A DNA stretch of 64,000 nucleotides from Rhodanobacter sp. (GTDB lineage: Bacteria > Pseudomonadota > Gammaproteobacteria > Xanthomonadales > Rhodanobacteraceae). Each line of letters opens with the position of its first letter. The stretch's first letter is position 1. The DNA is taken from NCBI GenBank assembly GCA_004298015.1, contig SCSE01000033.1, forward strand, positions 62,001 to 126,000, in the 5' to 3' direction. Below the pieces are notes generated by a model. The model saw only the letters and a list, made by a program, of their open reading frames with translations. It was not told where the DNA came from and did not search any database. Of the stretch, positions 11,601 through 18,295 are shown piece after piece. Both the position numbers and the translations under genes were made by a program.

Positions 11601-12361
11601 ATCAACCGAAGGTGGATTTGAAATCAAACACCATTATCGGGGTCGAAGCATTGTTGCGCATGCGCAAGGCCGACAACCAGCATGTTTCACCTGACGATTT
11701 CATTCCCCTGGCCGAGGAAACCGGCCTGATCGTGCCGATCGGGCAATGGGTGCTTGATACAGCTTGCAGCGACGCCGTCAGGATGCAGGCCTTGCTGGGC
11801 GTACCGCTCAAGGTCGCCGTCAATGTTTCACCACGGCAATTCATGAATGGCGACCTCGTCAATACGGTTCGAGATGTACTCAGCCAAACCCATCTCGACG
11901 CTGACCACCTGGAACTCGAGATAACCGAAAGCGTATTGATGGACGAACGCGGCGGCGTTACCGAGGCATTGGTCGACCTTCACCAGCTGGGTGTTGCGAT
12001 CTCCATCGATGATTTTGGTACAGGCTATTCAAGTCTGAGTTACCTCAAGCGCTATCCCATCAGTCAGCTCAAGATCGACAAGTCCTTCATTCGCGATGTC
12101 ACGATTGATTCGGGAGATGCCGCCCTGGTCCTGGCCATCATTGCCATGGGACACAGCCTCGACATCCCGGTAATCGCCGAGGGTATCGAAACCGAGGAGC
12201 AGCTCGCCTTCCTCGCACACAATCATTGCGATCATGGCCAGGGCTTTCATATAGGACGCCCCATGCCCTTTGATGCGCTGATGCAATGGTTTGGTGATGC
12301 TGATCACTGGCTGCTGAACAAGGATTCAGGGGAGACTCTTCCCCGGGAACTTGGGTCGTAG
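8606..12361 (+). CDS. membrane PAS-PAS-GGDEF-EAL c-di-GMP enzyme
   Basis: A 1251-residue c-di-GMP turnover protein. The N-terminal 200 residues contain about six hydrophobic helices, followed by another helix (about 222-242), a large predicted periplasmic sensor (about 243-505, dCache-like in appearance) and a last helix (about 508-527). Two PAS-like domains follow (about 538-660 and 665-800). The diguanylate cyclase domain has an intact GGDEF at 887-891 and an inhibitory RxxD site (RPTD, 878-881). The phosphodiesterase domain starts near 985 with E1014-A-L1016, and DDFGTGYSS and KIDKSFI are retained. Both activities therefore look possible. Codon use is visibly more A/T-rich than in neighbours. 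No partner gene is adjacent; the target process is unknown. Confidence 0.92.
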   Translation: MFASWKSSCPAWIPGALSVLLGSVVLFGWLFNIASLTRLNPGWHPMVPGTALCFTLAGLLLLKCRKSPGDPFSMAQTVSAWLLLLLTGARAVELASGWDFGVEFWGFTAKIDDPAVGHMSAMTVVGFMAFGVGVLASRHARNRQVRMFTRSIACLLILVGVIDIVQHWINLQYLFEPVFLTKYLAWMSISSALGMILLGIGLWFISLRPGQASATITAEQRAKRIYSTAILVVALTAITVSLAGLRFMDQAVRAQASSNLRQLLGTKEAFLGATIDHYTQRALVAGTNLDVRKLAATAFNGGAGAETAIAKLAAITKLLLKHGFSGVALEQNNQDTRIAGHLIPDTTYSVRLYGKNTYSFVWDKGYYVRVRIPIENATRDAPGNFIVFDLALPEVDKLISETNKWGETGTLPMCARLDRQRLLCFPQREQAGMYVVPDHIHGAPIPMTYALAHESGVAELTDYRGRQVLSAYGPVGDTGLALVLKMDLAELYAPARKQVLLSVPLIGILIILGLWIIRLRVRPLVKDMALAHLSESTARGRFEAATQSSPDAFVIYESMKDREGNIIDFRFVYLNKQAEALLDLLTDKSLGHSLLELFPQQTDLFEKYRMVMLSGEALNEKFTLAIEKNAEQWFMRQAVSMTGGIAVTVRDITHEELLTRDLELSNQLRTAIVESAAYSIISTDIEGTILSFNRTAERMLWYRADEVIGKVTPGIFHDAEEVRQRAKTLSDELGHTVEPGFEVFVAKAKMHVPEEREWTYIRKDGSRLPVQLSVTALHDKDDAPHGYLGIAHDISEQKRAAEYIRHIALHDVLTGLPNRALLDDRVMQAIEQQRRGNTSFALAMIDIDHFKHVNDSMGHHIGDRLLKEFVERAKSCLRPTDTLARMGGDEFVLLLPDCDETLTLAVMERVRDSLKPSIDMGLQELHISASIGISIFPRDSHNFHELLRCADVAMYWVKEHGRNGYKVFSPDMDDSGIDRLNLENDLHNALRNNAFTLLYQPKVDLKSNTIIGVEALLRMRKADNQHVSPDDFIPLAEETGLIVPIGQWVLDTACSDAVRMQALLGVPLKVAVNVSPRQFMNGDLVNTVRDVLSQTHLDADHLELEITESVLMDERGGVTEALVDLHQLGVAISIDDFGTGYSSLSYLKRYPISQLKIDKSFIRDVTIDSGDAALVLAIIAMGHSLDIPVIAEGIETEEQLAFLAHNHCDHGQGFHIGRPMPFDALMQWFGDADHWLLNKDSGETLPRELGS

Positions 12362-12602
12362 AAACGTTGGAGAGCGAGATGAGGCTGTCGCCATAGCGTG
12401 CGTCTATCGGAGGGCTTGCATCGTCATGCTATGCAAGCCCGACCAGCGGCTCAGCCTGTGGATGAGAGCATCATCACAGCCCGAAGATTTCTATGGCCCA
12501 CGCTCCCATGGCGACCACGCGCGTCGATCCTTCGATCAATACCCGGTCGTGATAGGAACACCGAGCGCGCGTGTCGCGACGCGAGCAACAGCGCAACATG
12601 AC

Positions 12603-12637
12603 AACAAAAAACCCCGGCAGGACCGGGGTTTTTTGTT
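12603..12637. terminator. bidirectional terminator between the GGDEF-EAL gene and gyrA
   Basis: A 15-bp perfect stem (12603-12617 with 12623-12637, loop CAGGA) has A6 on one flank and T6 on the other. It serves both converging genes. The rest of the 12362-12652 gap shows no gene or obvious signal. Confidence 0.9.
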
Positions 12638-12652
12638 CAGAACAACCTCAGC

Positions 12653-15271
12653 TCACTCTTCCGCAGGTGGTGGCGACACAGTGCCAGCAGCGTTGTCGCC
12701 ATCTGCCGGTACGGATCCCTCCACAACCTCGGCCTCGTCGTCGGCCTCGTCCTCCGCATCCAGTCGCATCACGCTGACCAGGGTCTCATCAGCCGGAAGA
12801 CGAATCAGCGTGACCCCCTGGGTGTTGCGGCCGAGTTGCGAGACCTCTGCCACCCGGGTACGCACCAGCGTGCCTTGATTGGAAATCAGCATCAGCTCGT
12901 GCGCTTCGGTGACTTGCACCGCACCGACCAGGCCACCGTTGCGCTCGGAGCACTGGATGCCGATCACACCCTGGGTGCCACGGCCCTTCTTGGTGAATTC
13001 CACCAGTTCGGTGCGCTTGCCGTAGCCGCGGGCAGTCGCCGTCAGGATGTCGCCCTCGGCCGCAACGATCAGCGAAACCACTTCCGCATTCTCGGCCAGT
13101 CGCATGCCGCGCACGCCTGCAGCCGTGCGACCCATCGAGCGTACGGTGTTTTCGTCGAACCGATTGACCTTGCCATTGGAGGCGAACATCAGGATATCGC
13201 TGTTGCCATCGGTCATCGCCACATTCACCAGCGCGTCGCCCTCATGCAACTTGATCGCGAGCTTGCCTTTCTGCAGCTGGAACGCGAACTCGGTCAACGG
13301 GGTCTTCTTGACCGTACCGTGCCGCGTGGCGAAAAACACGAAACGATCTTCAGCGTATTCGCGGGTCGGCAAAACCGCCTGCACCTTCTCGCCCTCACCC
13401 AGCGGCAGCAGGTTGATGATCGGCTTGCCACGAGCCCCGGGGCCTGCTTCGGGAATCTGGTACACCTTGAGCCAGTACACCCGGCCCGTGCTGGTGAAGG
13501 TGAGCAGCGTGTCGTGGGTATTGACCACCCACAACTGCTCGACCACATCCTCGTCCTTCAATGCCGAGGCCGAGCGTCCCTTGCCGCCGCGCCGCTGTGA
13601 GCGGTAGGTGCTGGCTGGCTGGCGCTTGATGTAGCCGGTATGCGACAGCGTGACCACCATGTCTTCCGGCGCGATCAGATCGAGTACGTTGAGATCCTCC
13701 TGCGAATGCTGGATCTCGGTACGACGGGCATCGCCGAATTCGTTCCTGATCGCTTCCAGCTCACCACGGATCACTTCCAGCAGGCGCTCGGGGTTCTCCA
13801 GAATCTCGATAAGGCCGCGGATCGTTTCCAGAATTTGCCGGTATTCGTCGGAGAGCTTTTCCTGCTCCAGCCCAGTCAGGCGATGCAGCCGCATCGCCAG
13901 GATTTCCAGCGCCTGGGCCTCGGACAACTGGTAACCATCGTGTTTCAGGCCATCGCGCGGATCCATCTCTTCCGGGCGCGATGACTCGGCGCCCGTCGCC
14001 GAGAGCAAGGCGCGGACCAGGCCGGCCTCCCAACGCCGCGAAACCATCCGCTCACGTGCTTCGGCCGGCGAGGTCGAGGTCTTGATCAGCTCGATCATCT
14101 CGTCGATGTTGGCCAGCGCGACGGTAAGGCCTTCGAGGATGTGCGCACGCGCACGTGCCTTGCGCAACTCGAAGATGGTGCGCCGGGTGACCACTTCGCG
14201 ACGATGCCGGATGAACGCCTCGAGGATGTCCTTGAGGTTCAGCAGCTTCGGCTGGCCATCCAGCAAGGCCACCATGTTGATGCCGAAGGTCACCTGCAAC
14301 TGGGTTTGCTGGAACAGGTTGTTCAGCACCACATCGCCCATCGAATCGCGGCGGATCTCGATCACGATGCGCATGCCGTCCTTGTCGGATTCGTCGCGCA
14401 GTTCGCTGATGCCCTCGAGCTTCTTTTCCTTGACCAGCTCGGCGATCTTCTCGATCAGCCGCGCCTTGTTCACCTGATACGGCAGCTCATGGACGATGAT
14501 CGTCTCGCGGCCGTTCGCCTCGGTTTCCACCTCGGCCCTGGCGCGCACCAGGATGCGGCCACGACCGGTACGATAGGCCTCGATGATGCCCGACGAACCG
14601 TTGATGATGCCGCTGGTCGGGAAGTCCGGACCCGGGATGTGGTGCATCAGCTCATCGATGCCCAGGGTCGGCTCGTCGATCAGCGCAATCACCGCCGTCA
14701 CCACCTCGGTGAGATTGTGCGGCGGAATGTTGGTGGCCATGCCGACGGCGATACCCGCCGAGCCGTTGACCAGCAAACTGGGAACACGTGCCGGCAAGAC
14801 CAGCGGTTCGCGCTCGCTTTCGTCATAGTTGAAACCGAAGTCGACGGTGTCCTTGTCGATGTCGGCCAGCAACTCATGGGTGAGCCGCGACATGCGCACT
14901 TCGGTGTAACGCATCGCGGCGGCGTTGTCGCCATCGACCGAACCGAAGTTGCCCTGGCCATCGACCAGCATGTAGCGCAGCGAGAACGGCTGCGCCATGC
15001 GCACGATCGCGTCGTAGACCGACTGATCGCCGTGCGGATGGTATTTACCGATCACGTCACCGACCACGCGGGCCGACTTCTTGTACGGCTTGTTCCAGAC
15101 ATTATCCAGTTCATTCATCGCGAACAGCACGCGGCGATGAACCGGTTTCAGACCATCGCGTACATCCGGCAGGGCGCGGCCCACGATCACGCTCATCGCG
15201 TAATCGAGGTAGCTCTGACGCATCTCGTCCTCGATGTTGACGCGAATGACTTCTTTGGCGAGTTCTGCCAT
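12653..15271 (-). CDS. gyrA: DNA gyrase subunit A
   Basis: The 872-residue breakage-reunion subunit of gyrase introduces negative supercoils with GyrB. The catalytic tyrosine is Y122 in AAMRYTE, and the N-terminal winged-helix text [21 protein letters not shown] is canonical. The C-terminal domain contains an intact GyrA box (QRRGGKG), required for wrapping DNA. The ATG at 15271 is chosen because GGAAG lies 7 nt upstream and numbering then matches E. coli; a TTG at 15274 also exists. At the quinolone-determining position 83 the residue is Gln ([10 protein letters not shown]), while D87 is kept. It is transcribed alone, with its own promoter, a leader with competing hairpins and a terminator. 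Confidence 0.98.
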
Positions 15272-15293
15272 CAATCAGCTTCCATGATATTGG

Positions 15294-15332
15294 AAAAAAG
15301 GCGCTGGCACCGCGCCTCCAGCGCAAGCGCTG
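15294..15332 (-). promoter_or_regulatory. candidate transcription attenuator in the gyrA leader
   Basis: On the minus strand GCGCTGG (15324-15318) pairs with CCAGCGC (15307-15301) and is followed by C and T6 (15299-15294), a terminator-like hairpin 22 nt before the ATG. Just upstream, CAGCGC (15332-15327) can instead pair with the same GCGCTG arm, closing on a CUUG tetraloop. The two structures exclude each other, as in an attenuator. Function is inferred. Confidence 0.55.
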
Positions 15333-15355
15333 AGCGGCCCGAAATCAACCCCGCG

Positions 15356-15385
15356 AGTGTAGCACGAAAGGTGCTGAAATGACAG
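15356..15385 (-). promoter_or_regulatory. sigma70-like promoter of gyrA with extended -10
   Basis: On the minus strand CTGTCA (15385-15380) and TACACT (15361-15356) are 18 nt apart. TG precedes the -10 by one base (TGCTACACT). The predicted start near 15349 gives a leader of about 78 nt. Confidence 0.6.
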
Positions 15386-15410
15386 GATTTAATCCTTGTT
15401 GATCAATGAC

Positions 15411-15824
15411 TTACAAGCTCGTCTTGGGGCGTTTGAAAAGCACCCCGCGCGCGGTTGAAAAATTGACCAGCGAGGCGACCGCCGAACCCGCCGCCGCCGC
15501 AATCGCCGGCAGCCGGTGCAAGGCGGCGAAATTCAGCAATAGCAGCGCATAGACACCGTAATTGATCACTGCACCGAAGCTCATCAAGGCCACCCAGTGC
15601 AGCCATTCGGTGTGCGCGGCACGATCGCTTCGGCGGCTCGCAAAGGTGTAGCGACGGTTCCACCACCAGGTAAAAGTGGCGGCCATGAAAAACGACAGCA
15701 CCCGCGCCAGATAAGGATTCCAGCCGGCCAGCCCGACCAGCGACTGCACCACGCTGGCGTCGATCAGGAGCCCGCCCAGGCCACCGACGGCAAACAGCGA
15801 GATTTCCCGCGACAGCTTCAGCAT
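15411..15824 (-). CDS. GtrA-family small membrane protein
   Basis: A 137-residue protein with four hydrophobic helices in the GtrA/PF04138 arrangement: [16 protein letters not shown] near the N-terminus, a WWWNRRYTF motif near 53-61 between helices two and three, and a basic C-terminus. GtrA proteins are thought to flip or help transfer lipid-linked sugars for cell-surface glycosylation. The start codon overlaps the end of mtnA by 7 nt, so it is translationally coupled to mtnA although no functional link is known. No glycosyltransferase gene is adjacent, so the substrate is not indicated. Confidence 0.85.
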
Positions 15825-16831
15825 CCGAACATCGCCTGCATCGCGATACTGTTCGGCCGCTCGATCAAGCCGCGTTCGGTGACGATCACGTCGATCAATT
15901 CAGCCGGGGCGACGTCGAATACCGGGTTCCACGCCTGCGCACCCTCGACTACGGTACGCACGCCTGCGGTGCCGAGCAACTCGGCGGGATCGCGCAGCTC
16001 GATGTCGATTTCCTCACCGGTACCCGTCGCCATGTCGACGCTTGACGACGGCGCCACCACCATGAACTTCACGCCATGATACTTGGCCGCGATCGCCAGC
16101 TGGTAGGTGCCGATCTTGTTGGCCGTATCACCATTGGCGGCGATGCGATCCGCGCCGACAACGACCCATTGCACCGCGCCGGATTTCATCAAATGGGCGG
16201 CCGCGGAATCGGCGATCAGCTGCGCCGGTATGCCATCGTGGACCAATTCCCACATGGTCAGGCGGGCTCCTTGTTGCCAGGGCCGGGTCTCGCCGGCGTA
16301 GACCCGATCGATCCGGCCGGCTGCCACACCGGCACGGATCACGCCCAGAGCCGTGCCGAAACCGGCGGTCGCCAGCGACCCGGTATTGCAATGGGTCAAT
16401 ACGCCCGAGCCAGGGGCAATCAATGAAGCGCCCAGCTCGCCCATGCGACGATTGGCCGCCAGATCCTCGTCCTGGATGGCCTGTGCTTCGCGCAGCAGCG
16501 TGGCGGCATTGGCATCGGCGTCAATGCGTCGCTGCATGCGGTCCAGTGCCCACATCAGGTTCACCGCGGTGGGGCGCGCCGCCCGCAGCCTGGCCAGCGC
16601 CGGTGCCAGGGGGATGTTCCGCAAGGCCGCCAGCACCACACCCCAGGCGGCGGCAATGCCAATCGCCGGTGCACCGCGTACCGCCAGATCGCGGATCGCC
16701 GCGGTCACCTGATCAACATCGCGGCAGTCGATCCATGATTCGACGGCAGGGAGCTGGCGCTGGTCGAGCAGGCGCAAGTGATCGCCCTGCCATTGCACCG
16801 CACGAATGCGGTCATAACGGTCATCGTCCAT
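15818..16831 (-). CDS. mtnA: methylthioribose-1-phosphate isomerase
   Basis: MtnA converts 5-methylthioribose-1-phosphate to methylthioribulose-1-phosphate in the methionine salvage pathway. The protein is 337 residues from the ATG at 16831. Catalytic C148 sits in [11 protein letters not shown] and D228 in [21 protein letters not shown], both hallmarks of the aIF2B-like isomerase family, together with [13 protein letters not shown] near 52-64. A longer in-frame extension to 16912 exists but carries no conserved text. The Shine-Dalgarno is poor. No other mtn genes are nearby, so the rest of the pathway must be elsewhere if present. Confidence 0.93.
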
Positions 16832-17003
16832 CAAAATGATTGTGCTCTCAACAAGTAGGTAACAGGCGCAAGTGGCGCTGTGCGCACTATCTGGAACGGG
16901 CTGCAACAGCACGGTGGTCTGTCGCCCGGCACGACAAAGGCATCCACCACGGACAAGGCGCGGCCCCGGACCGTACCTGGTCGCCGCTGCCCTCAGTGGC
17001 GCC

Positions 17004-17189
17004 TCACGGCGCTTCGGGCATGACCACCCACATGATCAAGTACAGCAGGATACCCGAGCCTCCCATCAAGGTAAGCAGTATCCAGCCCACCCGCACCAAC
17101 GTCGGGTCCCAGCCGAAATACGTGGCAATGCCGCCGCAAACCCCGGCCAGCGCGCGATCCTGGCGTGAACGATACAGGCGTTTTTCCAT
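17004..17189 (-). CDS. small PspC-domain membrane protein
   Basis: A 61-residue protein that is essentially a bare PspC domain. A basic N-terminus ([20 protein letters not shown]) is followed by [16 protein letters not shown] and a hydrophobic helix ending in MWVVMPEAP. PspC domains sense envelope stress in the phage-shock response, but no pspA, pspB or pspF lies here. The ATG at 17189 has AAGGAGG 9 nt upstream; a much longer open frame reaching 17831 is an antisense artefact over phaC. It follows phaC by 38 nt on the same strand and may share its transcript. Confidence 0.85.
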
Positions 17190-17227
17190 CCTCTCGTGCC
17201 TCCTTGGGTAGCTATGAAGACCGCCGA

Positions 17228-18295
17228 TCAGGATCGCGCGCGCAGCCACTGGTGGATCGCCGGTGGCACTTCGCGCTGAGCGCGGCCGGACACATAGATG
17301 CCGATATGGCCGCCCCTGAACGCCAGCTCGGTATAGTCGGTGGTACCGACACGCTTGCCCAGTGCGCGCGAGGCATCCGGCGGCACCAGATGATCCTGCT
17401 CGGCAAAGATGTTCAGCACCGGCTGGGTCACCATACCCAGATCCACCGGCCTGTCGCCGATCTGCAGCGTCCCCTTCAGCAGCTTGTTGCCCTGGTAGAA
17501 GTCCTTGATGAATTGACGGAACGCCTCGCCGGCCTGGTCCGGTGAATCGAAGATCCAGCGCTCCATCCGCAGGAAATTTTCCAGCTCCACCGGGTTGTCG
17601 AGGATCTCGACCATGCCGATGTATTTCTGCTGGTTCAGTCGAATCGGCTTGAGCGTGAGGTAGACATAGTTCATCAGCCCGGCCGGGATGTTGCCCATGG
17701 TGTCGACAAACAGGTCGACATCCATATGGCGGCACCACTGCGACAGCATGTTGTCCTTCGTGTGGAAGTCCACCGGGGTGACCATGGTGATCAGGTTCCT
17801 GACCTTGTCCGGCTGCAATGCTGTGTAGCACAGCGAGAACGCACCGCCCTGACAGATCCCCAGCAGGTTGATCGCTTCCAGATCGTGCCGCTGCCGCACT
17901 GCATCGACACAGCGATCGAGGTAACCGTTGATGTAATCGTCGAGCGTCAGCCAGCGGTCAGCGCCGTCCGGATAGCCCCAGTCGATCAGGTAGACATCCT
18001 CGCCCTGCTCCAGCAGATTGCGCACCATCGAACGGTCGGCCTGCAGGTCGGTCATCCAGACCGTGTTGACCAGTGCATAGACGATCAGCAGCGGGGTTTT
18101 CGAGGTCGGCGTGCCATGCCCCTTGAAATGCCATACCTTGAGCTTGTCTTCGCTGTATACCAGTTCGCGCGGCGTGTTGGCATATTCCGGCTCGCGCATG
18201 GTGCGCAGATAACCCATGCCGGTGGCCAGCTTGCGCTGGAAGGCGGCGATGTCGCCAACTGCCTTGTTCGGATCGATGCGCAATGGCGTATACAT
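17228..18295 (-). CDS. phaC: class III polyhydroxyalkanoate synthase catalytic subunit
   Basis: PhaC polymerises 3-hydroxyacyl-CoA into polyhydroxyalkanoate granules. The 355-residue length and the pairing with phaE mark class III (Allochromatium type). The alpha/beta-hydrolase lipase-like box is GICQGG with nucleophile C148, and the triad is completed by D301 (AEQDHLV) and H330 (RGGHIGIYV). WGYPDGADRW is also typical. phaE lies 13 nt upstream on the same strand, and the two subunits form the active complex. No phaA, phaB or phasin genes are in the window. Confidence 0.96.
   Translation of the reverse strand: MYTPLRIDPNKAVGDIAAFQRKLATGMGYLRTMREPEYANTPRELVYSEDKLKVWHFKGHGTPTSKTPLLIVYALVNTVWMTDLQADRSMVRNLLEQGEDVYLIDWGYPDGADRWLTLDDYINGYLDRCVDAVRQRHDLEAINLLGICQGGAFSLCYTALQPDKVRNLITMVTPVDFHTKDNMLSQWCRHMDVDLFVDTMGNIPAGLMNYVYLTLKPIRLNQQKYIGMVEILDNPVELENFLRMERWIFDSPDQAGEAFRQFIKDFYQGNKLLKGTLQIGDRPVDLGMVTQPVLNIFAEQDHLVPPDASRALGKRVGTTDYTELAFRGGHIGIYVSGRAQREVPPAIHQWLRARS

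Follow-up and report, generated by a model that had tools for sequence, protein, structure and literature searches.

A conserved terminator-like hairpin in the gyrA leader of Rhodanobacter and many other Rhodanobacteraceae

Is the gyrA gene of Rhodanobacter sp. controlled after its transcription has begun? Accounts of gyrase homeostasis usually focus on the promoter. In the DNA analyzed here, a window of 64,000 nt from this organism, a GC-rich palindromic stretch (about 15340–15300) lies between the predicted transcription start of gyrA and a T6 tract. By window we mean this entire stretch, while genus and family in the following refer to Rhodanobacter and Rhodanobacteraceae. A preliminary description of the same DNA had interpreted the palindromes as mutually exclusive hairpins of a leader attenuator.

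Promoter, hairpins and T tract in the window

The features on which the argument depends are:

12653–15271, minus strand: gyrA (open reading frame and translation of the first 200 codons)
15294–15299, minus strand: T6 tract, read from the sequence; the predicted 3′ end of the RNA
15298–15340, minus strand: long terminator-like hairpin of about 17 pairs (−21.9 kcal/mol), its 5′ arm beginning at 15340 and its foot on the T6 tract
15301–15324, minus strand: 7-bp hairpin of the preliminary description (−12.3 kcal/mol), an alternative pairing of the 3′ arm of the long hairpin
15310–15342, minus strand: early alternative fold, an extended CUUG hairpin (−18.0 kcal/mol in the growing transcript) that would hold the 5′ arm
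15319–15332, minus strand: CUUG hairpin of the preliminary description (−7.0 kcal/mol), its two outer pairs not conserved
15349, minus strand: predicted gyrA transcription start, placed by promoter spacing about 7 nt after the −10
15356–15364, minus strand: extended −10 TGCTACACT of the gyrA promoter, conserved in family leaders
15379–15384, minus strand: −35-like TGTCAT, read from the sequence 17 nt before the −10; a weak match to the consensus
15411–15824, minus strand: small upstream ORF of 137 aa on the same strand as gyrA, with its stop 139 nt before gyrA

The ATG of gyrA occupies positions 15271–15269 of the minus strand, and the gene is present in all 45 genus genomes. We take the product of the small upstream ORF to be GtrA-like. 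As had been described, the promoter places the hairpins inside the transcript: TGTCAT (15384–15379), a spacer of 17 nt and the extended −10 (15364–15356) were all found. Conservation of the −35-like sequence was judged by eye only; for the extended −10 (TGnTAnnnT), 148 of 153 family gyrA leaders carry one 55–110 nt upstream of the ATG, compared to 4.6 expected. The distance of 22 nt (15293–15272) from the T6 tract to the ATG is correct as well, and the ribosome site GGAAGC lies within it.

The short hairpins of the preliminary description can likewise be drawn in the sequence. These are the 7-bp stem GCGCTGG (15324–15318)/CCAGCGC (15307–15301), followed by C at 15300 and T6 at 15299–15294; the CUUG hairpin CAGCG (15332–15328)/CGCTG (15323–15319), which shares the GCGCTG arm; and a GGCGC/GCGCC stem as third alternative. 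What had been missed are the eight bases 15340–15333, which belong to the 5′ arm of the long hairpin. Both the GGCGC/GCGCC stem (−12.4 kcal/mol) and its combination with the CUUG hairpin, which is the only compatible combination (−19.4 kcal/mol), are weaker than the long hairpin, while the full form of the early alternative fold is near-isoenergetic with it in the source species. In sequence, the leader has the form of an intrinsic terminator, namely a GC-rich hairpin whose 3′ foot is immediately followed by a U run.

Judged from the window alone, nothing about the leader exceeds chance. Its 82-nt leader folds no better than its own shuffles (z −0.03). In the transcript from the predicted start, a fold that also uses the initial GUUG reaches −22.7 kcal/mol and is slightly better than the long hairpin; the terminator scan of the window picked this fold and not the long hairpin, and a simple terminator scan of positions 12000–18000 did not report the gyrA leader site. 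The two arms of the long hairpin pair with a mean probability of 0.47 in the window transcript and of 0.79 over the genus. Of the 33 leaders of long ORFs in the window, 3 score, that of gyrA included, and 30 of the 32 others are without the element. Many genomic copies, as of a REP-like dispersed repeat, were not found in the source genome, which gave one match at E 0.001 or better. It is the comparison with relatives that lifts the element far above chance.

Conservation and covariation in relatives

For this comparison, 153 family gyrA leaders were used, 45 from the genus and 108 from 25 other genera. The latter were drawn from 136 non-genus genomes, of which the other 28 gave no match, were located at contig ends or were not taken in. 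Further sets comprised 36 gyrA leaders from other families of the order and 80 named loci that were read by eye only. A terminator-like element was scored when a hairpin of −15 kcal/mol or better had its foot at most 2 nt from a stretch of 8 nt with at least 5 T, and expected counts were obtained from dinucleotide shuffles.

Such an element is present in 40 of the 45 genus leaders (5.9 expected) and in 91 of the 153 family leaders (14.2 expected), while the latter share probably overstates the family rate, because 22 of the 28 left-out genomes belong to genera without any scoring leader in the sample (g5, g9, g15, g25, and g26). At least one hit was obtained in 15 of the 26 genera. Full or nearly full sets were found in g4 (4/4), g6 (6/6), g19 (6/6), g24 (5/6), g14 (9/11), and g18 (10/11), and fewer hits in g22 (4/10) and g11 (1/11). 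No leader scored in g5 (0/4), g9 (0/5), g13 (0/5), g15 (0/5), g25 (0/8), and g26 (0/4), nor in g2, g7, g12, g17, and g20 (6 leaders together); altogether 62 of the 153 family leaders, including 5 of the 45 genus leaders, fall below the threshold. If at least 4 T in a row within 3 nt of the hairpin foot are demanded, 82 of the 153 family leaders remain and g18 drops to 2/11. All 91 hits lie wholly downstream of an extended −10, which is where an attenuator would sit relative to the predicted start. Outside the family, 2 of 36 leaders score: L240, a member of another family with its hairpin upstream of the gyrA −10, and L269, whose hairpin has an interrupted tail. In the genus itself, no terminator was detected in gyrB leaders (0/29; 29 of 30 loci were scored, L300 by inspection not being at its true start) or in parC leaders (0/20).

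Some individual leaders deserve mention. In L018, L136, and L140 of the genus the T run is broken and the region of the ribosome site is changed, and they offer a natural contrast. By eye, a gyrA leader hairpin without T run is visible in another family of the order, in L066 and L072 (Stenotrophomonas) as well as in L236 and L244 (family f2).

The pairing of the long hairpin is conserved as well. In the alignment of all 45 genus leaders 91.5% of its pair cells are paired, and both-sided changes affect 7 pairs and 11 cells, values that were matched by 4 and 0 of 500 shuffles, respectively. Broader measures are weaker, as 31 of 500 shuffles were as high in the number of pair types and 29 of 500 in the covariation score. 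In the nearest relative (L003) both arms have changed and still pair (AGGTGCT/AGCACCT). The long structure was derived from folds of genus members, a choice that gives it an advantage in the slid-partner control. In a further test, the −10 alone fixed the position of the 5′ arm and the T run that of the 3′ arm; here 74% of positions pair at the predicted register, compared to 28–49% at other offsets (76 leaders). With the register taken from the genus and applied unchanged to 13 other genera, the values are 71% compared to 28–52% (37 leaders), so that the complementarity of the anchored arms spans 14 genera. Pair types vary at a given position of this test, the eighth pair, for example, being T-A in 26, C-G in 13, and G-C in 11 cases. 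We also built a covariance model from 29 genus leaders, which remained of the 45 after outliers and duplicates had been dropped, and ran it against 51 of the 108 family leaders from outside the genus. At E 0.01 or better it found the leader in 16 of these 51 loci, representing 7 genera; this is not a rate, since most of the loci had been picked because a T run or hairpin could be seen in them.

The short hairpins fared differently. Of the pair cells of the CUUG hairpin 67.6% are paired in the 45 genus leaders, without covariation beyond shuffles; its three inner pairs are kept, the two outer ones occur in 15/45 and 10/45 rows. The 7-bp hairpin reaches 83.7% in the same alignment with weak signal, and its G-C pair at columns 36/50 is found in only 15/45 rows. 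Conservation in relatives had been set as a test beforehand. The terminator passes it, whereas the CUUG and 7-bp hairpins as drawn do not.

A probable plain terminator and the alternatives

From the arrangement of promoter, hairpin and T tract, from their conservation and covariation, and from the link to gyrA discussed below, we conclude with a probability of roughly 0.7 that the gyrA leader of the source and of many family members acts as a promoter-proximal intrinsic terminator, which would attenuate gyrA without a built-in RNA antiterminator. Thus, many gyrA transcripts of the family may end before the gene begins. Four other explanations have to be weighed.

One might think of a 5′ stabilizing hairpin combined with a U-rich enhancer of ribosome binding, without any termination. 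Some genera fit this idea, for example g5, whose leaders fold well (mean z −2.62) yet give no terminator hit, and by eye, hairpins that lack a T run are seen in leaders of other families. However, the T run adjoins the hairpin foot, with a gap of 0 in 31 of the 40 genus leaders in which it occurs, and moves with the hairpin and not with the ATG. Measured from the −10, it lies about 56 nt downstream in most of the genera that carry it (44–45 nt in g24). The ATG follows the T run at a distance of 24–28 nt in the genus, 35–38 nt in g6, and 31–33 nt in g24, with an overall range of 24 to 38 nt. That the T run tracks the hairpin foot fits a terminator rather than a U-rich ribosome enhancer, and we consider the latter unlikely. 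The greater distance in g6 is explained by a duplicated Shine-Dalgarno-like stretch (GGAAGCC...GGGAAGCC) before gyrA, which was observed in L044, L048, L160–L162, and L187.

The second alternative is the switchable attenuator of the preliminary description, in which the upstream hairpin serves as antiterminator and a signal chooses between this hairpin and the terminator. In the window, the early fold around the CUUG hairpin (15342–15310) would form first and hold the 5′ arm, and, as stated above, its energy is close to that of the long hairpin. RNAalifold also takes pairs of this fold: in the genus alignment it predicts five pairs, three outer and two core pairs of the early alternative fold, and in six such pairs 95.2% of the cells are paired. 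In the nearest relative and in g4, g11, g21, and g23 the 5′ arm is engaged beyond the level found with a shuffled middle. Nevertheless, none of the five RNAalifold pairs, and none of the six, shows a both-sided change; consequently, the structures were named and counted instead. Moreover, as long as the 3′ arm has not been transcribed, the mean pairing probability of the 5′ arm is 0.53 compared to 0.64 with shuffled middle (76 leaders), the corresponding values being 0.52 and 0.65 in the genus and 0.62 and 0.71 in the window. Even with the CUUG hairpin in place, a terminator can be made by the GGCGC stem. Since a shuffled middle engages the 5′ arm more than the natural one does, the leader on the whole looks built to terminate. 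A selected antiterminator fold was found neither by the 5′-arm test in 76 leaders nor by pair counts in the genus alignment, and a signal-operated switch is in our view improbable. Of the original proposal, the leader attenuator thus survives as a conserved terminator-like element, while the switch between mutually exclusive hairpins is not supported: the short hairpins are not conserved as drawn and the 5′ arm is freer than chance.

Other routes of control were considered as well. A leader peptide from the initial TTG was rejected, as no consistent reading frame exists among the 45 genus leaders: in 27 the frame is open into gyrA, in 8 it stops at the gyrA ATG, in 2 further inside and in 1 within the leader, and 7 have no TTG. 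No Rfam family was found in the leader of the window.

Third, the element could serve the upstream genes as their terminator and lie within the gyrA leader by coincidence. The upstream genes are co-directional, the gap amounts to only 139 nt, and the second upstream gene is still present in genus members that lost the adjacent one. Against this speaks the site itself, which is downstream of the gyrA −10, where a terminator would stop gyrA too; in L240 the terminator is found upstream of the gyrA −10, where one for an upstream gene belongs. Among the 30 genus genomes examined, 13 lack the adjacent upstream gene and 6 retain only a remnant of it, and the terminator is kept in 19/19 of these members. 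Thus, the terminator goes with gyrA and not with the adjacent gene. This conclusion is limited by the second upstream gene, which is still in place; relatives that have neither upstream gene in line and yet keep the terminator were not found among the loci for which 1500 upstream bases were covered. Taken together, we regard an upstream-gene terminator as very unlikely.

Finally, chance palindromes in GC-rich DNA would agree with the unremarkable folding of the window leader alone, yet comparative counts far above those of shuffles, and above those of gyrB and parC leaders, refute them for the genus and leave this explanation a negligible probability.

Possible mechanism, known systems and further leaders

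How would a plain terminator act on gyrA? RNA polymerase would start about 78 nt before the gyrA ATG, at the predicted start, make the long GC-rich hairpin and then at once U6. A fraction of the transcripts would end at the T tract, giving a leader RNA of about 56 nt, and the others would read through into gyrA, so that terminator strength might set or tune gyrA output. We infer termination, and its being partial, from the arrangement of the leader. Placed in front of an essential gene, a strong terminator without regulation would be a paradox if there were not substantial readthrough. Such readthrough would come from limited termination efficiency or from factors that act on the polymerase, and it poses a clean question, as no selected antiterminator is visible to explain it. 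Given that neither a selected antiterminator nor an Rfam family nor a consistent leader frame was found, regulation should act on the polymerase or via a binding factor. Candidate inputs on the polymerase are elongation speed, Nus factors and DNA supercoiling. If many genera of the family retain a terminator in their gyrA leaders, an essential drug-target gene would have gained a control point after initiation.

One might speculate that the leader serves as a gauge of supercoiling, if passage of the terminator, or cruciform extrusion of the 17-bp palindrome behind the promoter, depends on superhelicity. In that case, a gyrase gene would be tuned by its own product at termination instead of initiation and without an RNA switch. 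In Escherichia coli, novobiocin raises premature termination genome-wide, according to PMC12083536. This makes a supercoiling link at the gyrA leader thinkable, and we regard the gauge as a long shot.

Classical intrinsic-terminator attenuators carry a hairpin and a U run between promoter and gene and are controlled by a leader peptide or a riboswitch. The gyrA leader has the same layout of hairpin and U run; in contrast, its RNA of about 56 nt comes without Rfam family, selected antiterminator and consistent reading frame. The kind of element is therefore already known, while its instance at gyrA in this family is absent from the literature matches listed, among which there was no paper on a Rhodanobacteraceae gyrA leader.

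A structured RNA in the gyrA leader is known from another gammaproteobacterial group, namely the gyrA RNA motif RF01740 of Pseudomonas (Rfam; PMC2864571). Its model consists of two adjacent hairpins that end beside the ribosome site, unlike the hairpin plus T6 of the window. The window did not match RF01740 up to E 10, nor did 11 loci (9 of the family, 2 of another family of the order) up to E 0.5, while 4/4 Pseudomonas gyrA leaders used as controls matched at 72–76 bits; these matched leaders do not have four consecutive T at the foot of the hairpin. For the gyrA leader of Pseudomonas aeruginosa, premature 3′ ends were measured and alternative terminator and antiterminator folds were predicted with PASIFIC, as PMC8297930 describes. 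This species belongs to another order; RNA ends were measured there, whereas our evidence is drawn from DNA sequence, and an antiterminator was predicted there, whereas no selected one is seen here. Since its genus carries a different leader RNA, as judged from the RF01740 matches of the four Pseudomonas leaders, these premature gyrA ends are a hint that leader termination may have arisen more than once.

Two observations on other leaders of the genus were made along the way. Most gyrB leaders (L271–L299) have in common TGCTATAAT and an initial GGTTGCATC that resembles the GGTTGATTTC of gyrA, and show the palindrome CTGGCGCCAG just before the ribosome site, without T run. The initial GGTTG as a signal common to gyrA and gyrB was rejected, because the gyrB leader of the source itself lacks GGTTG; an extended −10 followed by GGTTG occurs at two places in its genome, gyrA and one that is not gyrB. 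The parC leaders L301, L302, L316, and L317 share a conserved block, GCTTTCTGGCACCATCGACCGG, about 40–61 nt before parC, which is perhaps a promoter.
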